DNA of 64,000 nucleotides, taken from Mycolicibacter virginiensis. GTDB taxonomy: Bacteria; Actinomycetota; Actinomycetes; Mycobacteriales; Mycobacteriaceae. The translations under genes were made by a program, and so were the position numbers. Shown one piece after another: positions 43,921 through 55,907 of this stretch. The DNA is taken from assembly GCF_022374935.2 (NCBI RefSeq), contig NZ_CP092430.2, forward strand, positions 2,666,001 through 2,730,000, in the 5' to 3' direction. Position 1 is the first letter of the stretch; each line of letters starts with the position of its first letter. The notes under the pieces were generated by a model that was not told the origin of the DNA, did not search any database, and saw nothing but the letters and a program-made list of their open reading frames with translations.

Positions 43921-44544
43921 CTAGAGCCGCTCCCCCGCCAACCGCGCCTTCTCCAGCGCCGCGTCGCGCATCTGTGCCCGCTCCTCGGGGGTCCACCGGG
44001 TGGTCGGTTCGAAGACCAGTGTCTCGACGGCGTAGCCCAGCATGGTGAACACGTACTCCAGATACGGCCGCTGAAAGTCCTGCAGGTCGGCGCGATCGCC
44101 GTCGTAGGCGCTGGAGCGCGTCAAGATGAGTTGCAGCGGCTTGCCCTCCCCCAACGTGCCCACGTGTTCGCCGCGCTCGTTGAGGGTGAAGCTGGCCATC
44201 GGCTGCACGATGACGTCGATCCAGGCCTTCAGGGCATGCGGCACATGCCAATTCCACATCGGCGAGGAGACCACCAACCGATCGAATGACCGCACCCGCT
44301 CGATCTCGGCCAGCACCTGCGACCAGATCTGCTTCTGCTCGGGGGTTCGGCGTTCGCCGTAGAGCGGTGCGAACTTGGCGAACGCGGCATCACGGCCGAA
44401 CACCAGCATCTCGTCGGTCCACACCGAGAACCGTTCGACGTCGCCGACCGCTGCCGCGGGCGCGGCGTCCAGGAAGGCCTGGGTCAGCGCCGAGGACAGC
44501 GAGTGCTCTTGTTTCGGGCTCGCCTCCACCCACAGAGTTTTCAT
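43921..44544 (-). CDS. Flavodoxin-fold FMN-dependent NAD(P)H reductase (AzoR-like)
   Basis: This 207-residue protein has an ASPKQEHSLSSALTQAF phosphate-binding start and the SSPMWNWHVPHALKAWID segment that matches the FMN-binding (P)MYNFxxPxxLKxWID motif of azoreductases. It likely reduces FMN or quinones with NAD(P)H. It begins 17 bases after the flavin monooxygenase gene with AAGGA upstream, so I infer it supplies reduced flavin to that enzyme, as in two-component monooxygenases. An independent quinone/azo reductase role remains possible. Confidence 0.82.
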   Translation of the reverse strand: MKTLWVEASPKQEHSLSSALTQAFLDAAPAAAVGDVERFSVWTDEMLVFGRDAAFAKFAPLYGERRTPEQKQIWSQVLAEIERVRSFDRLVVSSPMWNWHVPHALKAWIDVIVQPMASFTLNERGEHVGTLGEGKPLQLILTRSSAYDGDRADLQDFQRPYLEYVFTMLGYAVETLVFEPTTRWTPEERAQMRDAALEKARLAGERL

Positions 44545-44561
44545 GGTGTCCTTCGCCTCGG

Positions 44562-45731
44562 TCAGATCATCGAGATCGGTGAGATCTTCACGCCGGCCTC
44601 GAGTGCGCCCGACAATTCGCGTGCCACGTCGTAGTCGAAGACGACGTGTCCGCAGATGACGTCGACATCGCGTTTGGCGCGCTGGAGCGGGTTGGCCACG
44701 AACTGCGCGCTGGCACCGGAGGCTTCGAGCAGATCGGCGATCACGGCCCGGGATTCGTGCACGATATAGGCGGCCGCAGCCCGGGCATCGGCCCGAACGG
44801 GGCGACTGATCCGCTCGCGCGCATCCACCGCGTCTTGAATCCGGCCCGCGGTGTCATCGAGAAGCCCGCGCAGCGCACGCAGCCGAACCCGCGCATCGCC
44901 CAGGCGGATCTGGGCCGCCGGCTGATTCTTCTGCGCCGCACCGGAATACGCCAGCACCCGCTCGGTCAGGCGTTCGGCGAACAGGTCGGCGACCCATTCG
45001 GCCGACCCGAGGGCGGGCATCGCGGCGACCAGGGCCAGCGCCGGGACCATCGGCCACCGGTACGCCGAGGCGTCATGCAGCTCGGCGCCGGGAGCGGTTC
45101 CGGAGTAGATGTCAAGGACCTTGACCAGTCGGTGCGACGGCACGTGCACGTTCTCGATGACGACATCGTTGGAGCCGGTGGCCCGCATGCCCGCGGTGTG
45201 CCAGACGTCCTCGATGCGTATGTCGGCCGCCGGGAGCAGCACCAGCGCCGGGTAGGGCGCCTCAGAGCCGTCGCTGGGTCCGCAGATCGCCCCGACCATG
45301 ATCCAGTCGGCGTCCATCACGCCGGTCGCCCACGACCAGCGCCCGGACAATCGGATGCCATCACCGTCGGGCACGCCGCGCCCGGTCGGCGCCAACGGCG
45401 CCGGGCACAGCACCGGCCCGGAAGCGAACACCTCGTCTTGGGCCTGCTCACCGAAGAGCGCCAGCATCCAGTTGTGCAGCATGTAGAACCCGAGCGTCCA
45501 GGCACTGGACGCGCAGCCGTGTGCCATGCGCCGAATCGGGTCGAGGATCTCGGGAAATTCCGCCTGCTGCCCGCCATAGCGGGCCGGTAAGAGCAGGTCG
45601 GCCAGTCCGGACTTGCGGAAGTCCTCGACGGTCTCGGCCGGAAGACGGCGCAGCTCCTCGGCGGCTGCGGCGCGTTGCGCCAGTCGAGAGATGAATTCCT
45701 CGGGCACCACCGGTGCCGTCATGGTCGCCAT
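44562..45731 (-). CDS. Acyl-CoA-dehydrogenase-fold flavin monooxygenase (group D type)
   Basis: The 389-residue protein has the acyl-CoA dehydrogenase fold but C-terminal features of reduced-flavin monooxygenases such as HsaA, DszC and SfnB: LLEASGASAQFVANPLQRAKRDVDVICGH. The N-terminal RLPAETVEDFRKSGLADLLLPARYGG is standard for the superfamily. These enzymes use FMNH2/FADH2 from a partner reductase to hydroxylate aromatics or oxidise sulfur compounds. A candidate TetR operator lies 13-30 bases upstream of the ATG, and the FMN reductase gene follows. The exact substrate cannot be read from the sequence. Confidence 0.8.
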   Translation of the reverse strand: MATMTAPVVPEEFISRLAQRAAAAEELRRLPAETVEDFRKSGLADLLLPARYGGQQAEFPEILDPIRRMAHGCASSAWTLGFYMLHNWMLALFGEQAQDEVFASGPVLCPAPLAPTGRGVPDGDGIRLSGRWSWATGVMDADWIMVGAICGPSDGSEAPYPALVLLPAADIRIEDVWHTAGMRATGSNDVVIENVHVPSHRLVKVLDIYSGTAPGAELHDASAYRWPMVPALALVAAMPALGSAEWVADLFAERLTERVLAYSGAAQKNQPAAQIRLGDARVRLRALRGLLDDTAGRIQDAVDARERISRPVRADARAAAAYIVHESRAVIADLLEASGASAQFVANPLQRAKRDVDVICGHVVFDYDVARELSGALEAGVKISPISMI

Positions 45732-45743
45732 ACCCGGACCGTA

Positions 45744-45761
45744 CCATACCTTTTGGTATGG
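45744..45761 (-). promoter_or_regulatory. TetR-type operator between tetR and the monooxygenase gene
   Basis: CCATACC and GGTATGG form a perfect 7-bp inverted repeat around TTTT. It occupies most of the 33-base gap after the tetR stop and in front of the monooxygenase ATG. Its AT-rich symmetry and place suggest that the adjacent TetR controls the downstream monooxygenase-reductase pair from within the larger cluster. Confidence 0.6.
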
Positions 45762-45764
45762 AGG

Positions 45765-46343
45765 TCAGTGTCGCAGCATGACGTCCAGGAACCGTTCCCG
45801 CCCGCTCGCCGCTCGTGCGCTCGGCGCCGAACCGGACAGATGCAGAAATCCGATTCCGACGGCGAACGTTGCATTGGCGCGCATGTCGGCCTCGTCGGTG
45901 TCGAAGCCGTCGTCGAGAAACGCCTGCCGAACCGCCTTGAGCACCCGCCGATCCGAGCTGCGGACCGCCGCGGCGACACTGTCCTCCGACCGGGCCCATT
46001 CGCGCATGGCACGTTCGAGCATCCAGTGGGCGGGCCCGACCAGGGCGGCCATCATCCGCGACAGCCGCTCGCGCGGCGGCAGTTCCGACAGCGCATCGAA
46101 GTCGCCGCGGTCCGAGTCACGCACTGCGGCAAAGGTGTCGACCAGCGCCTGCCGGTAGGTCTTCATATCGGCGAAATGCCAGTAGAAACTGCCTTTAGTG
46201 ACTCCGAGCCGCTTGCAGAGCCGGTCGATGGTCAGCGCCTTGACGCCGTCTTCGGCCAGAATGCGGAAGCCGGCCTGCACCCAGTCCTGTACGGACAGCC
46301 GGGGATTGCCGCCCGACCCGCCAACTGTGTCCGACGTGGCCAT
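45765..46343 (-). CDS. TetR-family regulator of the monooxygenase pair
   Basis: This 192-residue protein has a TetR DNA-binding domain at residues about 18-65 (GFRILAEDGVKALTIDRLCKRLGVTKGSFYWHF), where TKGSFYWHF is the recognition helix signature, followed by a helical ligand domain. It starts six bases after the flavoprotein stop and is followed by the monooxygenase gene, so it lies inside the nine-gene leftward run. The inverted repeat at 45744-45761 is the likely operator. Confidence 0.9.
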   Translation of the reverse strand: MATSDTVGGSGGNPRLSVQDWVQAGFRILAEDGVKALTIDRLCKRLGVTKGSFYWHFADMKTYRQALVDTFAAVRDSDRGDFDALSELPPRERLSRMMAALVGPAHWMLERAMREWARSEDSVAAAVRSSDRRVLKAVRQAFLDDGFDTDEADMRANATFAVGIGFLHLSGSAPSARAASGRERFLDVMLRH

Positions 46344-46349
46344 GGCGAG

Positions 46350-49061
46350 TCAGCGTACTGACCCGGCCGCTTCCTGCAAGGCCCGACGCGCGTACGCGCG
46401 AACGTCGGCGTCGTTGTCCTTGACCGCGAGCCCGAGCGCATCGCGAGCGGCGACGTCGGATTCGGCCCAGAGGGTCAGCCCCAGCACGGCGGCTTTGCGC
46501 ACGTCGAGATGCGGGTCCTCCAGTGCCACCGTCAGCAGCGGCACCGCCGCTTCGGCGTGCGCACCGACCAGCGCGCGGGCCGCGCCGACCCGAACCTGCC
46601 ACGCCGACTCGCGTAGTGCCGGGGTGATGACGGTGAGGTCCTGCGGCCCGCAGCCGATCTCACCGAGCGCGGCCAGTGCCGCCGCACGCACCAGCGGGTC
46701 CGGGTCGCCGATCAGGACCCGTACGGTATCGGCCCCGGCGCGCAACGTCGCCAAGGCGTTGGCTGCGGCGACGCGCACTTCGCGGTTGCCGTCGTCGGCG
46801 GCGATCGCCACCGTTGCCGCGTCGTCGACCGAGACCAGTGCCCGCACCGCTTCGATGCGCACGCGGTGGTCGGGATCGGCCAGTGCGGCCCGGTAGTCCG
46901 CCGGGTCTCCGGCCCGCCGGCTGGACAGCAGGTACACCACGCAGGCCCGCACCGCCGGATCCGGCGAGTTCAACTGCGCACCTGCCGACTCCGGATCGGC
47001 AACCACTTCGACGAGCTCACGCGCCCCGTCGGCAGCGGTCCGGCGCACCGCCGCATCAGCGTCGGCGAGCGCGCCGAACAGCGCAGCGGCGTAACCGTCG
47101 GGAGTGTGCTCGCTCAGCGCGGCGACCGCGGTGCGGCGCACCGCCGGATCGGGATCACCGAGGTATTCGGCCAGATCGGCCAGTGTCGGCTCCTCCAGGG
47201 CCACGACCGCCGCGATACGCGGCGATGGCGGGTGCACCGCGGCCGGTGCCGCAACCCGTGAACCCGCGGTCGCCGGAGCCTGGCCGCCCAGCAGCGGCGG
47301 CTGCGCCACCGCACGCACGGACTGGTCGGTCGGCGGCAACCCGTCCAGTTCGGGGACGGCCACGAAGTAGGGGGCGACCGGGCGTTTGAGGAATTCCATG
47401 GTGCCGTCGGCACGTTTGCGCACGTTGAGGTGGTAGCCCCACTGCGCGTCGTCACGACCGGGCAGGTCGGCACGGTCGTGGTACAGACCCCACCGGGACT
47501 CGGTCCGAGTCAACGATGACCGGGCGGCCAACTCCGCGCAATCACGGATGAACGACACCTCGACGGCCCGCATCAGCTCGTGCGGGCTGCGGGCGCCCAT
47601 CTCGGCGATCTCACCGCGCATCCGCTCGAAGGTCTGCACCGCCAGCGAGAGTTTGGCAGCCGACTTCGGCGGCGCCACATAGTCGTTGACGAACCGACGC
47701 AGCTTGTATTCCACCTGCGGCTGCGGCGGACCCTCGGGGTGGCGCAACGGGCGATAGATCAGCTCGTGAGCCTCGGCGAGCTGATCGGCCGGCAGCTCCC
47801 CCGGCGCCGTGACCTCGCCCAGTGTCGCGGCCGCATCCGCACCGGCGAGGTCACCGAACACGAAGGCGCCGATCATGTAGTTGTGCGGTACGCAGGCCAG
47901 GTCGCCGGCGGCGTACAGGCCGCCAACCGTGGTGCGGGCATTCTCGTCGACCCACACCCCCGATGCGGAATGCCCCGAGCACAAACCGATCTCGGAGATG
48001 TGCATCTCGATGTCGTGGGTGCGGTAGTCGTGACCGCGGTTGGCGTGAAAGGTTCCCCGGGTGGGCCGCTCGGTGGTGTGCAGGATGTCCTCCAGCGCCG
48101 AGAGCGTCTCGTCGGGCAGGTGCGACACCTTGAGGTAGATCGGCCCGCGCGCGGAGTCGATCTCGGATTTGACCTCGGCCATCATCTGACCGGACCAGTA
48201 GTCGGAATCGACGAACCGCTCCCCCAGCGAGTTCACCTGATAGCCGCCGAACGGGTTGGCCACGTACGCGCAGGCTGGCCCGTTGTAATCCTTGATCAGC
48301 GGATTGACCTGGAAGCATTCGATGCCGGACAGCTCGGCGCCGGCGTGGTAGGCCATCGAATAGCCGTCGCCGGCGTTGGTCGGGTTCTCGTAGGTGCCAT
48401 ACAGATAGCCCGACGCGGGCAGCCCGAGGCGCCCGCACGGCCCGGTCGCCAGGATCACCGCCTTGGCGCCGACGGCCACGAACTCACCGGTGCGGGTGTG
48501 CAATGCGGCGGCCCCGACCGCCCGGCCGTCGCGAGTGAGCACCCGCACCGGCATCAGCCGATTTTCGATGCGGATCTTCTCCCGCATCGAGCGCTGCCGA
48601 AGCACCCGGTAGAGCGCCTTCTTGACGTCTTTGCCCTCGGGCATCGGCAACACGTAGGAGCCGGAGCGGTGTACCCGACGTACCGCGTACTCGCCGTGCT
48701 CGTCCTTCTCGAACTTCACTCCGTAACGTTCCAGCCGCTGCACCATCGCGAAGCCGCGGGTGGCGGTCTGATAGACGGTGCGCTGGTTGACGATTCCGTC
48801 GTTGGCGCGGGTGATCTCGGCGACGTAATCCTCGGGCTCGGCTTTGCCGGGGATCACGGCGTTGTTGACGCCGTCCATGCCCATCGCCAGCGCCCCGGAG
48901 TGGCGCACGTGCGCCTTCTCCAACAACAGCACCTGCGCGCCGTGCTCGGCGGCGGTCAGCGCGGCCATGGTGCCGGCGGTGCCGCCGCCGATCACCAGCA
49001 CATCGCAGTCCAGCCGCTGCGGGGTGGCGACATCCGGGATCTGCAGGGACGTCTGCGTCAT
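46350..49061 (-). CDS. AprA/AsfA-like FAD flavoprotein fused to HEAT repeats
   Basis: The 903-residue protein has an N-terminal fumarate-reductase/AprA-type flavoprotein part (residues about 15-590): FAD motif VIGGGTAGTMAALTA, LLEKAHVRHSGALAMGMDGVN, ILATGPCGR, and the second FAD segment GGLYAAGDLACVPH. Residues about 620-900 are eight HEAT (PBS-lyase type) repeats of 30-35 residues with the DPDPAVRRTAVAAL pattern, a domain normally absent from AprA or AsfA. The family reduces or releases sulfur compounds with electrons from a ferredoxin; a two-cluster ferredoxin is in the same operon. An SsuABC-like transporter between them points to organosulfonate use. The start overlaps the ATPase stop (ATGA). 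Dissimilatory APS reduction is unlikely, since sat and dsr genes are absent here. Confidence 0.8.
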   Translation of the reverse strand: MTQTSLQIPDVATPQRLDCDVLVIGGGTAGTMAALTAAEHGAQVLLLEKAHVRHSGALAMGMDGVNNAVIPGKAEPEDYVAEITRANDGIVNQRTVYQTATRGFAMVQRLERYGVKFEKDEHGEYAVRRVHRSGSYVLPMPEGKDVKKALYRVLRQRSMREKIRIENRLMPVRVLTRDGRAVGAAALHTRTGEFVAVGAKAVILATGPCGRLGLPASGYLYGTYENPTNAGDGYSMAYHAGAELSGIECFQVNPLIKDYNGPACAYVANPFGGYQVNSLGERFVDSDYWSGQMMAEVKSEIDSARGPIYLKVSHLPDETLSALEDILHTTERPTRGTFHANRGHDYRTHDIEMHISEIGLCSGHSASGVWVDENARTTVGGLYAAGDLACVPHNYMIGAFVFGDLAGADAAATLGEVTAPGELPADQLAEAHELIYRPLRHPEGPPQPQVEYKLRRFVNDYVAPPKSAAKLSLAVQTFERMRGEIAEMGARSPHELMRAVEVSFIRDCAELAARSSLTRTESRWGLYHDRADLPGRDDAQWGYHLNVRKRADGTMEFLKRPVAPYFVAVPELDGLPPTDQSVRAVAQPPLLGGQAPATAGSRVAAPAAVHPPSPRIAAVVALEEPTLADLAEYLGDPDPAVRRTAVAALSEHTPDGYAAALFGALADADAAVRRTAADGARELVEVVADPESAGAQLNSPDPAVRACVVYLLSSRRAGDPADYRAALADPDHRVRIEAVRALVSVDDAATVAIAADDGNREVRVAAANALATLRAGADTVRVLIGDPDPLVRAAALAALGEIGCGPQDLTVITPALRESAWQVRVGAARALVGAHAEAAVPLLTVALEDPHLDVRKAAVLGLTLWAESDVAARDALGLAVKDNDADVRAYARRALQEAAGSVR

Positions 49062-49789
49062 GAGTGCTCCAATGCGGTGAGGATGGCGGCCCGCAGTGCG
49101 GGTTCTGCCCGGCCGCAGCGCGGTTCGGGAACCTCGATCAGTGCCCGCAGTGGCTGTCCAGCACGCCCGAGCACCGCCACCCGGTCACCGAGTGCCAGTG
49201 CCTCGTCGACGTCGTGGGTGACGAACACGATCGTGGTGGGGTGGGATCGCCAGGTGTCGATCAGCAGCGCCTGCATGGCGGCGCGGGTCGCGCTGTCCAG
49301 CGCCCCGAACGGTTCGTCCATCATCACCGCACGAGGCGCGCCGGCCAGGCCGCGGGCCAACTGAACCCGTTGCCGCATCCCGCCGGAGAGGCTTTTCGGC
49401 AGATAATCGCCGAACCCGGTCAGCCCAAGCTCAGCGATCCACCGGTCGGCTTGGGCCCGCCGCCCGGCGCGCGGGACACCGCGCAGTCGCAGCGCCAGCT
49501 CGATGTTGGAGCGCACCGAACGCCACGGCAACAGCGCGTTGTCCTGAAACACCACGCCGCGGTCCCGCGAGGTGGTCCTCACCACGGCGTCGTCGGCCAG
49601 CACTTGTCCCTGCTCGGGATGCAGTAACCCGGCCAGGGCGCGCAGCACGGTCGATTTGCCGCAGCCGGATGGACCGGTCAGCACCAGGATCTCGCCCGGG
49701 CGCACGGCCAGGCTCAGCTCATCAATCACCGGAAAGTCGGTGTAGGACAGCCGGACCCGGTCCAGTGTGAGGCTCATGCCGACCGTCAT
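49058..49789 (-). CDS. ABC transporter ATPase, SsuB/TauB/NrtD type
   Basis: This 243-residue ATPase has Walker A GPSGCGKST, the Q-loop VFQDNALLPWRSV, signature LSGGMRQRVQLARGL, Walker B VMMDEPFGALD and the H-loop FVTHDVDEAL. The LLPW after the Q-loop is characteristic of nitrate/sulfonate/taurine importers. It overlaps the permease stop (ATGA) and the flavoprotein start, so it is expressed with both. An internal ATG five codons in is a possible alternative start. Confidence 0.92.
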   Translation of the reverse strand: MTVGMSLTLDRVRLSYTDFPVIDELSLAVRPGEILVLTGPSGCGKSTVLRALAGLLHPEQGQVLADDAVVRTTSRDRGVVFQDNALLPWRSVRSNIELALRLRGVPRAGRRAQADRWIAELGLTGFGDYLPKSLSGGMRQRVQLARGLAGAPRAVMMDEPFGALDSATRAAMQALLIDTWRSHPTTIVFVTHDVDEALALGDRVAVLGRAGQPLRALIEVPEPRCGRAEPALRAAILTALEHS

Positions 49790-50634
49790 CGACCGTTCTC
49801 CTCACTGCGCGGCAGCCAGCGGGTCAGCCGCCGCCCGACCGTCTCCACCGCAGCCGAGGTGGCGAACCCCAGCACGCCGATGGTGATGATGCCGACGAAC
49901 ACGTCCGGGTAGGCCAGCACGGTGTAGGCCTGCCACGTCCGATACCCGATACCGAGGCGCCCGGAGATCATCTCCGCGGAGATCACGCAGATCCACGACA
50001 CACCCATGCCGACCGACAGGCCGCCGAAGACCCCCGGCAGGATGCCCGGAATCACCACCTGGCTCAACACATCCCAGCGTCCGCCGCCCAGGGTGCGGAC
50101 CGAGTCCTCCCACAGCGTGGGCAGGGCGCGCACCGCGTGCCGGGTGCTGACCAAGATCGGGAAGAAGGCGGCCAGGAACGTGATGAACACGATGCCCTGT
50201 TCGCTGGCCGGAAAGAGCAGGATCGCGACCGGAACCAACGCGATGGCCGGGATGGGCCGGATCAGTTCGGTGAGCGGGCCGACGACATCGGCGGCCACCC
50301 GCGATCTGCCCAGCAGGATGCCGGTGGCGACACCGACCGTCGCGGCCAGACCGAAGCCGGTGAGAATCCGAATCAGCGACTGGGCCAGATCCAGCCAGTA
50401 CGCCTCGGTGCCCAACCGGCGCACCAACGTGGTGAACACCTCATCGACGGTCGGCAGCGTGTCGAACCGCAGCCACCACCGCACGTCAGCGACGGTCAGC
50501 AACTGCCACAGCCCCAGTGCGGCCACCACCGAGGCCAGGCGCAGCAGCCAGGACCACCGTAGGGTCCGGGCCCGGCGCGGTACGGCGCCGACCGGAGCGG
50601 ACGCGGCCGGGGCGCCGGCGAGGACCGCGGTCAC
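49786..50634 (-). CDS. ABC transporter permease, SsuC/TauC type
   Basis: The 282-residue protein has six hydrophobic segments and the EAA loop EDSVRTLGGGRWDVLSQVVIPGILP, which contacts the ATPase. It belongs to the BPD_transp_1 family of sulfonate/nitrate/taurine permeases. The GTG at 50634 overlaps the binding-protein stop by four bases; longer frames to 50775 would lie inside that gene. It probably forms one importer with the adjacent ATPase and lipoprotein. Confidence 0.92.
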   Translation of the reverse strand: MTAVLAGAPAASAPVGAVPRRARTLRWSWLLRLASVVAALGLWQLLTVADVRWWLRFDTLPTVDEVFTTLVRRLGTEAYWLDLAQSLIRILTGFGLAATVGVATGILLGRSRVAADVVGPLTELIRPIPAIALVPVAILLFPASEQGIVFITFLAAFFPILVSTRHAVRALPTLWEDSVRTLGGGRWDVLSQVVIPGILPGVFGGLSVGMGVSWICVISAEMISGRLGIGYRTWQAYTVLAYPDVFVGIITIGVLGFATSAAVETVGRRLTRWLPRSEENGR

Positions 50635-51992
50635 GCCGCACCCGCCAGGGCCTGCCGGTAATCCAGCACGACGCCACCAGGATGCGCGGCGACATAGCGC
50701 CTCGCCCCGGCTGTCGTGTCGAAAGACAGGTAGCGCGTACCGTCGCGAACCCACGCCGATTTGTCGGCGAACCATCGAGTCCCCAGCTCGGCGTCGTGCA
50801 CATAGGCGGCCCGCAGGTGATCACCGCGGGCCGTCGCGGCGCGCACGGCGTCCAGCAGCGCGCCGGAATCCGGCACCGTCACGGTGGTTTCGGATCCATC
50901 CAGCCAGAGCTCGCCGCCGACCGTCGTGGGTTTGTCGATCTCGGCGACCGTCTTGTCGTAGTCCAGCTTTCGCGCATCGAACGCCGCGCGTAGCGGCTTG
51001 TCGTCGACGAATCCGTCCACGTCGAAGTCGTCCAGCTCGGCGAAGTCGCCGATCGACTTGAGGTAGGGCACGTCGTTCTTCAACGCGGCGACCAGCTGCG
51101 GCTTGAGGGTGGCGTCGAACGAGGTGCCGCCCGGCCCGTTATAGAGGTAGACCACCTCCTGCGGCAGCCCGCTGCCCTCGGCGACGATGCGGGCCGCCTC
51201 CAACGGCTTGCGTTTCAGGAAGTCGGTCGCATCCAGCTGGGCTTGCAGGAATGCGTCGAGCACTTCTGGGTGGGCCCGCGCATAGCTTTGGCGCACCACC
51301 ACCCCGTGCAGGGTCGGGTAGTTGAGTTCGGCACCGTCGTAGAGCAGCCGTGCCCGGTCCTGATACACCAGCAGTCCGGGCCAGGCCACGAATTGCGACA
51401 GGCCTTGGACCTGACCGGATTCCAGTGCTGAGGCACCCACCTGAGGCTGCTGATTGAGCACCTCGACGCCGGTTCCGGTGCCGGCCAGCGCGCGCAGCAG
51501 GGTGCCGTGGCCGGCCGAGCCCACGCTGGCCGACACCTTGGCACCGGCCAGATCGGCCAACGTGTCCGCACGGGAGTCGGGCGACACCACCACCATGTTC
51601 AAGGCACCGGCGGGGTGATAACCGGTCACCGCAACGATCGCGGTGCGGGCCTGCTCGTTGGCCCGGGTTCGGACGCCATTGACCAGCATGGGGTAATCCC
51701 CCATCGAGCCGATGTCGATCTTCTCGGCGAGCATCTGCGCGGTGATCGGCGCCCCGGTGTCGTAGTCCTGCCAGTCGACCCGGTAACGAGTTCCGGTCCG
51801 GTTGGTGATGTCGGCGAGCCGGCGCTCCAGGTAGCCGCGAGCGCGCAGCAGTGTGCCGGCGGTCGCGGTGTTGATGGTCTTGGACTGATAACCCACCACC
51901 ACGTCGACGGAATCACCCGCGGTCGTGGAATCCAGCGAGCATCCGGCCAGCGCGAGGATGGCGCTGGTCAGCAGAACGAGGGATCTCTTCAT
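50631..51992 (-). CDS. ABC transporter substrate-binding lipoprotein with NosL-like C-terminal domain
   Basis: The 453-residue protein begins with a lipoprotein signal (LALAGC, Cys18). Residues about 30-350 are an SsuA/NrtA/TauA-type binding domain: VVVGYQS, DIGSMGDYPMLVNG, SASVGSAGHGTLLRALA and VVVRQSYARAHPEVLDAFL. Residues about 365-450 (TVTVPDSGALLDAV, AAYVHDAELGTRWF, RYLSFDTTAGARRYVAAHPGG) resemble NosL copper-chaperone proteins, without obvious Met/Cys copper ligands. This tail explains why it is about 100 residues longer than usual. It follows the ferredoxin gene by 24 bases and overlaps the permease. Confidence 0.85.
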   Translation of the reverse strand: MKRSLVLLTSAILALAGCSLDSTTAGDSVDVVVGYQSKTINTATAGTLLRARGYLERRLADITNRTGTRYRVDWQDYDTGAPITAQMLAEKIDIGSMGDYPMLVNGVRTRANEQARTAIVAVTGYHPAGALNMVVVSPDSRADTLADLAGAKVSASVGSAGHGTLLRALAGTGTGVEVLNQQPQVGASALESGQVQGLSQFVAWPGLLVYQDRARLLYDGAELNYPTLHGVVVRQSYARAHPEVLDAFLQAQLDATDFLKRKPLEAARIVAEGSGLPQEVVYLYNGPGGTSFDATLKPQLVAALKNDVPYLKSIGDFAELDDFDVDGFVDDKPLRAAFDARKLDYDKTVAEIDKPTTVGGELWLDGSETTVTVPDSGALLDAVRAATARGDHLRAAYVHDAELGTRWFADKSAWVRDGTRYLSFDTTAGARRYVAAHPGGVVLDYRQALAGAA

Positions 51993-52016
51993 GAAACACC
52001 TTGATGGTCAATGCAT

Positions 52017-52244
52017 TCAGCGAATGAGATAGGGCATGTTGACGGTGACGGCGCCGGTCGGACAGCGCGCCGCACACGGTCCGCAGTACCAGCACTCGTC
52101 GACGTGCATGAAGGCCTTGCCGTTGTCCGGGTTGATCGCCAGGGAATCCAGCGGGCAGATGTCGACGCACAGCGTGCAGCCGGAGATGCACAGTGATTCA
52201 TCGATCGTCACGGGAACATCGGTACGGCCGTTGACCAGTGTCAT
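52017..52244 (-). CDS. Small 2[4Fe-4S] ferredoxin (AprB/AsfB-like)
   Basis: The 75-residue protein has two cluster motifs: CISGCTLCVDICP (residues about 19-31) and CWYCGPCAARCP (residues about 51-62), eight cysteines for two [4Fe-4S] clusters. Such a dicluster ferredoxin is the usual electron partner of AprA-type flavoproteins. The ATG overlaps the GntR stop (ATGA) and has AGGAG seven bases upstream. It precedes the binding-protein gene; I infer that it serves the HEAT-repeat flavoprotein at the other end of the transporter genes. Confidence 0.9.
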   Translation of the reverse strand: MTLVNGRTDVPVTIDESLCISGCTLCVDICPLDSLAINPDNGKAFMHVDECWYCGPCAARCPTGAVTVNMPYLIR

Positions 52245-52981
52245 GGATCGCTCCTTGTCAGGGTGCCGCGCATGGTGACGCGGTCACCGCGCATCCGGAT
52301 GTATTCAAGATCGACGGGCCGGCCGTCCTCGAGGCTGGTGAGCCGTTCCAGCATCAGCAGGGCCGCGCCGCCGGGAAGTTGCAGGAGAGCCGCGGTGTGC
52401 GGGTCGGCCGGAATCGCCTCCAGCGCCAAGGTCGCATCGCCCAGGCGCTGGCCGCTGATCTGTTCGATCAACGGGAACACGTCGGTGGACTCCAAGGGAT
52501 GGGCCAGCACAGCAGCGCCGATGTCGGGCGCCAGATAGGTCTGGTCCAGGCTCAGCGGCACATCACCGAGGTAACGCAGTCGTTCGATGAAGACCACCTG
52601 GGCGCCGGCGCCGAGGCCGAGCCGGCGGGCGACCGACGGCGGGGCGCCTACCGTGGTCGCCACCCGCACCTCGTTGCGCACCTCTTGCGCATCGAAGGTC
52701 TCCTGCAGGCCGCGCAGTGAGTCCAGTCCGTGGTCGTATTTGTGTTGAGCCACGTGGGTGCCGGTTCTCGGCCCGCGGTGGATCAGTCCTTCGGCCTTCA
52801 GCGCGGCCAATGCCTCACGAACGATATTGCGGGAGACGACGAACTCGGTGGCCAGTTCCGGTTCGCCGGGCAACCCGTCGTCGTAGGCGCCGGCATGGAT
52901 CTGATGGCGTAGCACGTCGGCGACCTGCCGGGCCCGATCCGCACGGCGAATCGGCTGCGATGCGACAGGGGCTTCGGCCAT
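52241..52981 (-). CDS. GntR-family (HutC/UTRA) regulator of the cluster
   Basis: The 246-residue protein has a winged-helix GntR domain (residues 15-80: LPGEPELATEFVVSRNIVREALAALKAEGLIHRGPRTGTHV) and a C-terminal UTRA ligand domain (residues 95-240). It is the first gene of the cluster and overlaps the ferredoxin start, so it should be autoregulated. Direct repeats in the 172-base upstream region are candidate binding sites. The ligand is unknown, probably the imported compound or a product. Confidence 0.92.
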   Translation of the reverse strand: MAEAPVASQPIRRADRARQVADVLRHQIHAGAYDDGLPGEPELATEFVVSRNIVREALAALKAEGLIHRGPRTGTHVAQHKYDHGLDSLRGLQETFDAQEVRNEVRVATTVGAPPSVARRLGLGAGAQVVFIERLRYLGDVPLSLDQTYLAPDIGAAVLAHPLESTDVFPLIEQISGQRLGDATLALEAIPADPHTAALLQLPGGAALLMLERLTSLEDGRPVDLEYIRMRGDRVTMRGTLTRSDP

Positions 52982-53153
52982 GCAGACACGCTAAGGGCCG
53001 GTACCTCGGCGACCCCAGAGCTGCGAATTCCGCTGATCGGGGGGTGAAACTCATTGCGCCACCCACCCGCTGCGGGCTGCCAGCGGAAACCTCGTGGTGT
53101 GAACGCATTGCGCCGCCGCGGCACCCGCGGCCCGGGTAACAATCGCGGTGAGG
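52982..53153 (-). promoter_or_regulatory. Promoter region of the nine-gene cluster with imperfect direct repeats
   Basis: This gap separates the decarboxylase stop from the GntR start. CATTGCGCC occurs at 53052-53060 and 53106-53114, each preceded by GTGAA-type bases (about 17 bases matching at 14 or more). The 54-base spacing places both on about the same helix face. A CCGCGGCACCCGCGG palindrome lies beside the upstream copy. I see no definite -10. Confidence 0.45.
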
Positions 53154-55907
53154 CTAATCGGCGACGCCGGGTGCCCGCGCATAGCGGGCCAGGGCCTCGG
53201 GAGTGAACACCGCCAACCCCAGCTCGGGGTTGTAGCCGTGAATCTCTTTCACGTCGAGTTCGGCCAGGAAGTACAGAATCTCCTTGGAGATCACCTGACC
53301 GGGAACCAGCACCGGGAAGCCGGGCGGGTACGGCACGACGAAGGTGGTCGAGACCAGGGTCTTGCCGTCGGCGACCCGGCGGCCGGCGTCGCCGAGCATC
53401 ACATATTCGCGATCGGACTCCTCATAGCCGGCGTAGAACGCCAATCGCATGTCACCGAACGTGCTGGCACCGCCGGGACGAAACGCGGGGGCGAACTCGC
53501 TGAAGTCCGGCAGCGGCGGCAGGTCTTCGGTGATCTCAACGATTTTGCGCTGCTGCAACGCCCGATCTTCGCTGCTGGCCGCCGCCCAGGCCCGGTCCAG
53601 TTCGCCGGCCACCCGGCGCAATGCGTCGAGCAGATAGTGCACGCTGGACCAGGTGACGCCAATGGTGAAGATCAACAGCACAGAGTTGATAGAGGTCTTG
53701 TTGATCTGGATGCCGAAGCGATCCATCAGGACCTTCTCGCGGAACTCGTAGCCGTTCATCCCGGTCTGACCCACGAACAGCGTTACCCGGGTCGGGTCCA
53801 ACACGAATTCGTCGGAACGCCAGGCCTCGTTCCACTCCGCCAGCCCGCCCTGGCGGACCTGACGGTAGGAATTGACCGTGGAAGTCCGGAATTCGCCGGG
53901 CACCAGATCGTCCTCATCGAGAATCCGGAACCATTTGTTGATCAGCCGGTCTTTTCGAACCCGGTGGCGAAACACCAGCGCCATGTCGTAAACCCGCCGG
54001 ACTATGTCAAACCCTTCGATGTCGACCTGGCGGCGGGCCAGGTCCAGTGAAGCGAGCAGCTGCTGATTCGGTGAGGTGGAGGTGTGGGTCAAAAACGCCT
54101 CGGCGAACGCATCACGCGCCAGCGCGTTGAAGTCCTTATCCCGGACGTGGATCATCGACGCCTGCCGCAGCGCCGACAGTGACTTGTGCGTGGAGTGGGT
54201 CGCATAGACCCGCACCCGTGCCGAAGGGGCGGGCAGCAGCCGGTGCTCGCTCCACTGGTCGCGATCAATTCCCTCCATGGATTCGCGCCACGCTTGGTAC
54301 TCGTTGGCATATCGCGGTGAGCCGAGCATGCTCTCCAGGCGTTCGGCGGCAACCATGGCGGTGCGTTGCCGGGCCCACGGCACCGCAGTCGCAAACGCGT
54401 ACCAGGCCTCATCCCAAAGGAAGCAGATGTCCGGCTTGATCGCCAGGACTTCCTCCATCACCCGTTGAGGGTTATAGACAACGCCGTCGAATGTGCAGTT
54501 GGTCAAAGACAACATCCGGACCCGGTGCAGCTGTCCGGCAGCCTCCAGGTCCAGCAACGCCCGCTTGATGGTGTGCAACGACACCGCGCCATATATCGCC
54601 GTAGGCGCCAACGGGTAGGCGTCCAGATACATCGGATAAGCACCGGCCAGCACCAGGCTGTAGTGATGCGACTTGTGACAGTTCCGGTCGATCAGCACGA
54701 TGTCACCGGGCCGGGTCAACGCCTGCCCCACGATCTTGTTAGCCGTCGAGGTCCCGTTGGTGACGAAGTAGGTATGGTCGGCGTTCCAGGTCTTGGCGGC
54801 CTTGTTCATCGCCACCCGGATAGTGCCGTGGGGGTCCAGTAGCGAGTCCAACCCGCCGGAAGTCGACGAGGTTTCGGCCATGAAGATGTTGCGGCCGTAG
54901 AACTCCCCCATGTCCTGCAGCGAGCGGGAATTGAAGATGCTGGCGCCGCGCGCCACCGGCAACGCGTGGAACTGACCGACCGGCTCGGCAGCGTAAGCCC
55001 GCAACGCATCGAAATACGGTGTGGCGTAGCGTTTCCGGATGCCGGCCAGCACCGTGCTGTGCAGATCGGTGACGTCGTTGAGCCGATAGAAGGTGCGGTC
55101 GTAGACGTCGGGTTCTGCCTCGGTGTCCGCGGCGATTGATTCGTCAGTCAGCATGTACAGGTCGATGTGGGGACGCAGCAGCCGCATCCATTCGCCGCAC
55201 TCGATTGCATCGTGGCTGCCATCGACGACTCCCGCGTCGTCGTTGGCGCCCAAAAGTGTGTTCATCAACGGGACCCGGTCGCGCGATCGCAGCGGAAGGT
55301 CATGCCGCACGATCGCCGCCTGAATCTCACCGTTGAGCGCTACGGCAGTGATGGCGTCCTCGACGCTGGAAGCCACCAACAGCTCGATCTGCACGTCATC
55401 GTCGACGTTACGCAGTGCGCGAAGGCTTTCCGCCAGGCTTTCCGGTGCTTCAGGCGGCGAGTCGTCGGCCAGCAGCACGGTGTAGAACTGCTGCCGCCGG
55501 GCCTGTGCCACCAATTCCTGATCGGCCAACGGTGAACCGATGTCGAACAACGCCGCCCGGTCCCCATAGTCCGACAGCAGCCGCACCACCAGCGATACCT
55601 GCTCGGTCAGCGACACCGTCGCCATGCCTTCGAGGTAGTTGCGAAACGCCGTCAGCCTTCCCGCGCCGGGGAACAACCAATATCGCTCGTAGGCCGCCAG
55701 TCGTTGCATCAGGCGCTTGACCTGCGCATATTGATGGGTGGTATCCATGCCGGCGCGGTCGACCGCAGCCAACTCCCGACACGCGTCGTCCAGCAGGTTC
55801 CAGGTGTCCACCCGTGAATACGACGGGTTCGCCACCGCCGCCAACGCCGATACTCTCAGTCTCCGATTCCGTGCGTCCCAATCTTGGCCCATGGGGCCAG
55901 TCTGCAT
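53154..55907 (-). CDS. Orn/Lys/Arg decarboxylase-family protein (Rv2531c-like)
   Basis: The 917-residue PLP enzyme is of the large fold-type I Orn/Lys/Arg decarboxylase family. It has an N-terminal wing (residues 1-270), the PLP domain with FVTNGTSTANKIV, LWDEAWYAF and the lysine in ATHSTHKSLSALRQASMIHV (about residue 575), and a C-terminal domain (YPPGFPVLVPGQVI). Substrate may be ornithine, lysine or arginine. The M. tuberculosis counterpart Rv2531c likewise lies next to nusB. The start may be the ATG at 55907 or one five codons later (GQDWDARN). It is separated from nusB by 72 bases. Confidence 0.9.
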   Translation of the reverse strand: MQTGPMGQDWDARNRRLRVSALAAVANPSYSRVDTWNLLDDACRELAAVDRAGMDTTHQYAQVKRLMQRLAAYERYWLFPGAGRLTAFRNYLEGMATVSLTEQVSLVVRLLSDYGDRAALFDIGSPLADQELVAQARRQQFYTVLLADDSPPEAPESLAESLRALRNVDDDVQIELLVASSVEDAITAVALNGEIQAAIVRHDLPLRSRDRVPLMNTLLGANDDAGVVDGSHDAIECGEWMRLLRPHIDLYMLTDESIAADTEAEPDVYDRTFYRLNDVTDLHSTVLAGIRKRYATPYFDALRAYAAEPVGQFHALPVARGASIFNSRSLQDMGEFYGRNIFMAETSSTSGGLDSLLDPHGTIRVAMNKAAKTWNADHTYFVTNGTSTANKIVGQALTRPGDIVLIDRNCHKSHHYSLVLAGAYPMYLDAYPLAPTAIYGAVSLHTIKRALLDLEAAGQLHRVRMLSLTNCTFDGVVYNPQRVMEEVLAIKPDICFLWDEAWYAFATAVPWARQRTAMVAAERLESMLGSPRYANEYQAWRESMEGIDRDQWSEHRLLPAPSARVRVYATHSTHKSLSALRQASMIHVRDKDFNALARDAFAEAFLTHTSTSPNQQLLASLDLARRQVDIEGFDIVRRVYDMALVFRHRVRKDRLINKWFRILDEDDLVPGEFRTSTVNSYRQVRQGGLAEWNEAWRSDEFVLDPTRVTLFVGQTGMNGYEFREKVLMDRFGIQINKTSINSVLLIFTIGVTWSSVHYLLDALRRVAGELDRAWAAASSEDRALQQRKIVEITEDLPPLPDFSEFAPAFRPGGASTFGDMRLAFYAGYEESDREYVMLGDAGRRVADGKTLVSTTFVVPYPPGFPVLVPGQVISKEILYFLAELDVKEIHGYNPELGLAVFTPEALARYARAPGVAD

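Follow-up and report, generated by a model that had tools for sequence, protein, structure and literature searches.

Here we describe a gene cluster of Mycolicibacter virginiensis centered on a flavoprotein which, judged by its sequence, belongs to a sister family of the alpha subunits of adenosine 5'-phosphosulfate (APS) and 3'-phosphoadenosine 5'-phosphosulfate (PAPS) reductases. The window, that is, the whole analyzed stretch of 64,000 nucleotides (positions 2,666,001 to 2,730,000 of contig NZ_CP092430.2), comes from a 4.98-Mb genome in one contig, and the cluster consists of nine minus-strand open reading frames (ORFs) at its positions 43921-52981. The nine genes form two juxtaposed modules: a six-gene core (gntR, a dicluster ferredoxin gene, three genes of an SsuABC-type importer, and a gene for a flavoprotein-HEAT fusion) that recurs across the Mycobacteriaceae, and a separate tetR-mox-fmnR flavin hydroxylase module. 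Tentatively, and with rather less than even confidence, we read the core as a cassette that would import a sulfonate-like anion and reduce it by an alpha-beta enzyme, releasing sulfite. The genes are as follows (ABC, ATP-binding cassette).

52241..52981, minus strand: gntR, GntR/UTRA regulator, first core gene (PF07702, 108.6 bits; PF00392, 55.9 bits).
52017..52244, minus strand: fdx, 75-aa dicluster 4Fe-4S ferredoxin resembling AprB and the PAPS reductase beta subunit (Fer4_7, 38.2 bits).
50631..51992, minus strand: sbp, lipoprotein-like substrate-binding protein of the SsuA/TauA family (TIGR01728, 109.2 bits against a cut-off of 163.5).
49786..50634, minus strand: perm, ABC permease of the SsuC/TauC/NrtB type (PF00528, 64.3 bits), with a probable GTG start at 50634.
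49058..49789, minus strand: atp, ABC ATPase of the TauB/SsuB type (tauB 205.8 and ssuB 180.9 bits, both below cut-off).
46350..49061, minus strand: flavoprotein-HEAT fusion, 903 aa; residues 1-600 resemble APS/PAPS reductase alpha subunits, and the C-terminal part consists of HEAT repeats.
45765..46343, minus strand: tetR of the trio module (PF00440, 38.5 bits), accompanied by mox in six loci devoid of the core (L303-L308).
44562..45731, minus strand: mox, HsaA-like two-component flavin hydroxylase of the trio (HsaA model, 244.2 bits; PDB 2rfq, 183.1 bits).
43921..44544, minus strand: fmnR, Flavodoxin_2/azoreductase-like flavin reductase of the trio (PF02525, 108.3 bits), located after mox in L303-L308.

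Both the order and the identities of these genes agree with the original prediction; Pfam and NCBIfam models assign them to the GntR-UTRA, Fer4 dicluster, SsuA/TauA-like substrate-binding protein, BPD permease, ABC ATPase, FAD_binding_2 plus HEAT, TetR, HsaA-type hydroxylase, and Flavodoxin_2 reductase families. The close packing is confirmed as well, with four-base overlaps at gntR/fdx, perm/atp, and atp/flavoprotein, and gaps of 24, 6, 33, and 17 bases elsewhere. The perm ORF as listed, starting from ATG 50775, overlaps sbp by 145 bases; its start should probably be moved to GTG 50634, giving a fourth four-base overlap.

In a phylogenetic tree, the core flavoprotein family joins four rows of APS/PAPS reductases (95/93), and the succinate dehydrogenase (SDH) and L-aspartate oxidase (NadB) rows lie elsewhere (99/98); the tree omits L215 as too short, and L216, assigned to the APS/PAPS reductase group, has a long branch outside both groups. 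The flavoprotein is thus placed outside the fumarate reductase (SDH) and NadB clades, and the earlier claim of an AprA-like flavoprotein with an adjacent dicluster ferredoxin gene and a sulfonate-type importer is borne out. Because the window protein passes the cut-offs of both NF010374 (PRK13800) and NF006131 (PRK08275), these models define its named family. The name fumarate reductase/succinate dehydrogenase flavoprotein subunit was rejected: there is no grouping with SDH, and the position of the SDH histidine that we take to be its substrate His is occupied by Asn253. Relatives at 88-90% identity, among the matches listed, are found in Mycolicibacter senuensis and [Mycobacterium] kokjensenii. 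The closest solved structure is the PAPS reductase of Methanothermococcus thermolithotrophicus (8a8o), at about 25% identity, and it is also ranked first by a core-only structure model. The first and second models of the protein have predicted local distance difference test (pLDDT) scores of 60.6 and 81.3; the alignment of the second comprised 64 rows, 35 of them APS-reductase-like, so that this model leans towards the APS-reductase fold. A separate observation concerns a plasmid of Ilyobacter polytropus, where an AprAB-like pair is located between cysC and cysD (L091:4300-7779); the alpha subunit of this pair clusters with the methanogen PAPS reductase, which suggests a bacterial assimilatory PAPS reductase of that kind.

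The family is set apart from its relatives by a residue signature, which we derived (in window numbering) from 240 core proteins, the best 120 plus the best 120, and 120 APS-reductase-like sister proteins; the 240 are rich in near copies, for example from Burkholderia multivorans, and a broader set of 145 loci agrees. Asn66 and His364, presumably the counterparts of Asn74 and the active-site His of APS reductase, are kept in all 240 core and all 120 sister proteins. In contrast, Tyr224, Glu225, and Leu255, present in 240/240 core proteins, stand at positions where the sisters have Trp, Tyr, and Arg (120/120). Leu255 and Tyr224 are equivalent to Arg265 and Trp234 in Archaeoglobus numbering, which we take to be pocket residues of APS reductase. 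Compared with Archaeoglobus AprAB (1jnr, 2fja), Arg265, Trp234, Tyr235, and Tyr95 are all replaced; compared with 8a8o, Leu255 and Tyr224 replace Arg and Trp. Cys249, Cys264, Cys361, and Cys508 are likewise invariant among the 240, whereas no sister protein has a Cys at any of the four positions. These four extra Cys, together with the importer and HEAT repeats in the cassette, also distinguish the core from the 8a8o system, and no APS kinase or 3'-phosphoadenosine 5'-phosphate (PAP) phosphatase gene was identified in the core cassette. All of these residues except Cys508 are invariant in the 145-locus set, too; for Cys508, the same holds in the 145 rows covering its position. By alignment only, Cys249, Cys264, and Cys361 lie beside SDH positions that are presumably substrate contacts; residues 262-264 have pLDDT below 50 in the second model. 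NadB has a Cys at the Cys361 position, and Gln251 is common to the core, SDH, and NadB.

PDB matches of the ferredoxin include the PAPS reductase beta subunit (8a8o_C, 35.7 bits) and AprB (3gyx_B, 35.3 bits), and several polyferredoxins score higher; its length is 75 aa, as compared to 150-166 aa in AprB. A Trp in the second-cluster motif is present in all 143 ferredoxins of the 145 loci and would correspond to PAPS reductase Trp42, proposed for electron transfer in the available text of PMC10322725. The same text proposes, for APS and PAPS reductases, that flavin N5 attacks sulfur and that an FAD-sulfite intermediate is formed. By analogy, the SsuABC/TauABC-type transporter would import a small sulfonate-like anion, and the flavoprotein and the ferredoxin would form the alpha-beta enzyme reducing it: electrons would pass from the ferredoxin via the conserved Trp to FAD, the flavin N5 would attack the sulfur of the sulfonate-like anion in a pocket different from that of the known enzymes, and sulfite would be freed for assimilation. 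A scaffolding or regulatory role in the complex is probable for the HEAT repeats. A bolder version appears doubtful to us, namely that the family is an oxygen-tolerant reductive desulfonase converting imported sulfonates to sulfite with ferredoxin electrons, with an extra catalytic site, either redox thiols or a metal cluster, formed by the invariant Cys249, Cys264, and Cys361, which the alignment places beside the flavin pocket.

At the level of sequence, the importer resembles taurine/sulfonate systems. The best PDB match of the substrate-binding protein is the taurine-binding protein 6ssy (51.6 bits), with the aliphatic sulphonate-binding protein 2x26 at 50.3 bits; the permease scores 127.9 bits with the ntrB model, 122.2 with SaoP, 111.9 with tauC, and 103.8 with ssuC, all below cut-off. 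The binding protein, the permease, and the ATPase all fall within the sulfonate/nitrate/taurine superfamily.

The division of the cluster into two modules follows from the comparison of related loci. In the Mycobacteriaceae-family set (40 loci and the window, 41 in total), the complete six-gene core is present in 37, four of which (L074-L077) have a different gene order; of the remaining four, L049 breaks off close to the end of its contig, and some of the genes are missing from L052, L055, and L070. The flavoprotein of L078 was matched in two pieces. On the other hand, tetR and mox occur in only three of the 41 loci and fmnR in two. Across 248 genomes of the genus, the flavoprotein is found in 121 (E <= 1e-200) and a mox relative in 163 (E <= 1e-90). 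In at least 12 of the 121 core-bearing genomes, mox adjoins the core, as established from hand-matched places and fetched loci (G000, G874, G780, G157, G187, G891, G775, G863, G842, G822, G929, and G835, in the last of which contigs break within the flavoprotein gene); the true number may be higher, since weaker mox matches are not among the places listed. All nine genes were hand-matched together in at least five of the 121 (G000, G874, G780, G157, and G891); G775 lacks tetR, and beside core and mox no fmnR was found in the other seven of the 12 genomes. Recurrence of the six-gene core thus exceeds chance, whereas the nine genes do not form one conserved unit.

Moreover, the trio exists on its own. 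Among six genomes picked for a close mox and no core match at E <= 1e-200 (L303-L308), tetR-mox-fmnR without the core is found in all six, near the same upstream decarboxylase gene and directly beside it in four. Since these loci keep the trio near the same decarboxylase, the core appears to have entered or left, as one block, the stretch between the two. The okr-tetR junction of L303-L306 represents an empty site for the core block. No relative of the window tetR, mox, or fmnR passed the filter in 82 other loci (described below). The view of the nine genes as one conserved unit was therefore rejected, given the trio without core in L303-L308 and the many core loci, the majority, without the trio. 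Identification of mox with HsaA was rejected as well: at 244.2 bits against an equivalog cut-off of 450, it is a related protein and not HsaA.

The 82 other loci, mostly proteobacterial, comprise one each from Variovorax and Nonomuraea and 80 genome loci, which are the top-scoring 80 among 587 confirmed matches and are close to a Cupriavidus sequence. We found related cassettes in members of the Beta-, Gamma-, and Alphaproteobacteria, in Acidithiobacillus, and in Cyanobacteria. Near the flavoprotein gene of the 82 loci, a ferredoxin is encoded in 82, a GntR relative in 80, HEAT repeats in 79, and a DUF971 protein (PF06155) in 66; the DUF971 gene, and an Mrp/NBP35 gene seen in two cyanobacterial copies, would fit Fe-S maturation. 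All three importer genes lie on the same strand within 7 kb of the flavoprotein gene in 56 loci, and none does in 24. Fusion of HEAT repeats to the flavoprotein is characteristic of actinobacterial loci (45/51 in the 145-locus set; among the six without it, L302 is truncated at the end of a contig) and absent from the 92 proteobacterial and two cyanobacterial ones; outside Actinobacteria the HEAT repeats form a separate gene. Finally, sulfur-type annotations flank seven (L079, L081, L085, L087, L090, L092, and L093) of 14 annotated core-bearing plasmid loci (L079-L087, L090, L092-L095), as judged by eye and without a control set, which lends weak support to a sulfur function.

Several observations weigh against the sulfonate assignment. 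Without Arg265, the pocket is no longer of the APS type. The importer stays below cut-off with every equivalog and subfamily model, and for the permease the nitrate model ranks first. The importer may be a loose partner of the flavoprotein, since in 26 of the 82 loci its three genes are not all adjacent (contig ends cut seven of the 26); two plasmid copies lack an importer directly in the cassette, and a Crp/Fnr-type gene takes the place of GntR in several alphaproteobacterial and cyanobacterial copies. When 1,919 ORFs from the flanks of 120 loci, picked by a composition rule that may overlook some genes, were clustered, few conserved families emerged outside the cassette. Four actinobacterial loci, with L050:7404-8141 among them, have a narI-type nitrate reductase gamma gene near the core, which would fit a nitrogen role; one member of this cluster was confirmed by Pfam. 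In the open-licence PMC literature, we found no expression, growth, or enzyme data on the cassette. The sulfur-source proteome table of strain IGTS8, in the available part of PMC8557817, names no such flavoprotein, nor do two Gordonia transcriptome papers mention one in their available text (PMC3868597, PMC7661421), carriage of the cassette by these strains being unchecked.

Some of these data would suit a sulfur-free substrate of the importer and reductase, such as a nitrate-like anion, an organic acid, or an aromatic or heterocyclic compound, and the superfamily of the binding protein is broad. The ntrB score of the permease (127.9 bits), the narI-type genes, the 26 loci without a complete adjacent importer, and the sharing of Gln251 with SDH and NadB and of the Cys361 position with NadB all point in this direction. 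Nevertheless, we consider such a substrate somewhat unlikely, as the nearest characterized enzymes have the sulfur of APS or PAPS as their target, the best scores of the ATPase and the binding protein are with taurine and sulfonate models, and what we assume to be the substrate His of SDH is Asn253 here.

A different role for a sulfonate-related system is suggested by the asfRABC genes of Pseudomonas putida S-313 and Cupriavidus metallidurans, where, similarly to the core, AsfA and AsfB combine a flavoprotein and a ferredoxin with an SsuABC/TauABC-type transporter nearby. The available part of a review (PMC4267179) links AsfAB to the use of aromatic sulfonates and treats it as a reductase/ferredoxin system for C-S bond oxygenation. 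Likewise, the core flavoprotein and ferredoxin could serve as an electron-transfer chain for a separate oxygenase in oxygenolytic desulfonation, and a two-component hydroxylase does follow the core in the window. However, mox is absent from 38 of the 41 Mycobacteriaceae-family loci and was not found in the 82 others, the flavin is surrounded by an invariant pocket suggestive of a substrate site, and the AsfA candidate belongs to a different clade, all of which makes this role improbable.

The likeness to asfAB noted in the original prediction does not, indeed, extend to identity with AsfA. The AsfA candidate of C. metallidurans CH34 falls in a clade separate from the core (100/99 and 100/100) and scores 56.2 bits with PRK08275 against the cut-off of 587; CH34 has no member of the core family, its best match reaching 121.6 bits against the same cut-off. 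In the available text of PMC2864759, AsfA/AsfB are Rmet_4334/5 on CHR2 of this strain. We placed them by interpolation from the six TauD genes of that text and six matches on the replicon, with numbering wrapping once; Rmet_4334 is thereby expected near 923 kb, and a flavoprotein-ferredoxin pair at about 927.9-929.9 kb was taken as the reference, which we infer to be AsfA by gene number and which is not the P. putida S-313 sequence. No LysR gene was recognized beside it. The window and 38 of the 40 other Mycobacteriaceae-family loci have a GntR-UTRA gene, not a LysR-type asfR; a LysR relative occurs somewhere within the flanks of 10 of the 82 other loci. Relatives of the CH34 candidate were observed in 9 of 149 Pseudomonas genomes searched (L262:5882-7863, L263-L271), and four of these neighborhoods show, by eye, LysR, ABC, or LLM-type genes.

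The original proposal that all nine genes serve one route, with a reductive arm and an oxidative one, accords with the common strand, the close spacing, and the core-tetR-mox order seen also in the more distant genomes G863, G842, G822, and G929; we regard it as very unlikely, with the trio free of the core in L303-L308, most of the core loci examined free of the trio, and all nine genes in five of 121 core-bearing genomes as a lower bound. Least probable of all is an assimilatory APS or PAPS reductase with a sulfate importer: although a PAPS reductase is the closest solved structure, Leu and Tyr replace the Arg265 and Trp234 retained by all sister proteins, the importer best fits SsuABC/TauABC-type models, and neither a sulfurylase nor a kinase gene was recognized in the cassette.

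The core is preceded by a putative control region, in which the following elements were found in the window.

53107..53114, minus strand: distal GGCGCAAT box, upstream of gntR.
53053..53060, minus strand: proximal GGCGCAAT box, 54 bp from the distal box.
52988..52993, minus strand: TAGCGT, a -10-like TANNNT element just before the gntR start codon, a candidate promoter element.

In 864 kb of sequence, or 17% of the genome, no other same-strand pair of boxes has this spacing of 54 bp. Of 49 actinobacterial loci, 40 carry the motif GGCGCA[AT]T on either strand in the 200 bp before gntR (39 of them on the coding strand; 32/42 after de-duplication), and 24 carry GGCGCA pairs 52-55 bp apart (19/42 after near-copy removal), as compared to 0.52% and 0.03%, respectively, of random 200-bp windows from the same loci outside the upstream regions. 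The paired GGCGCAAT box, with a spacing of 53-54 bp, precedes gntR in roughly half of the actinobacterial copies. Between the two boxes, 17 of 18 pairs have a GCNGG/CAGGT/CTGGT stretch. Around the gntR start (-40..+6), TANCGT was found in 29 of the 42 actinobacterial upstream regions that remain after de-duplication. The core-free loci L303-L308 have no box pair. Proteobacterial copies have instead the palindrome CTTGTN4ACAAG near the gntR start (34/85; 27/59 de-duplicated; 0.6% of random windows), for instance in L104, L115, and L137. The cassette GntR is the obvious candidate for binding the boxes. Operators of the GTNTANAC type were rejected, being present in only 2 of 134 upstream regions, and a text search with the box motif retrieved no paper on the operon by title. 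Further upstream, at 53154-55907 on the minus strand, 172 bp from gntR, is a gene for a 917-aa protein similar to Orn/Lys/Arg decarboxylases, the decarboxylase gene that remains near the trio in L303-L308.

Acquisition of sulfur from a sulfonate, as we propose for the core, has a precedent in IsrBHDK of Rhodobacter capsulatus, which according to the available text of PMC11423573 provides anaerobic isethionate assimilation; being composed of nitrogenase-like and radical SAM proteins, it is unrelated in enzyme class to the core flavoprotein. Among open-licence PMC papers, none was found to deal with the core flavoprotein family by title or start of abstract. The flavoprotein thus represents a widespread, apparently uncharacterized sister family of APS/PAPS reductases, with members in the Actinomycetota, Pseudomonadota, and Cyanobacteriota. 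The family goes under a wrong name, since the usual annotation is fumarate reductase, and it is often accompanied by its own importer and regulator. Renaming is needed even if the substrate proves different, because the present annotation offers the family as an enzyme of the tricarboxylic acid cycle, and the residue signature described here provides a simple means of sorting it from the APS/PAPS reductase sister family. If reductive sulfonate cleavage is indeed its function, it would constitute a second, non-nitrogenase route to sulfonate sulfur that does not involve an oxygenase.

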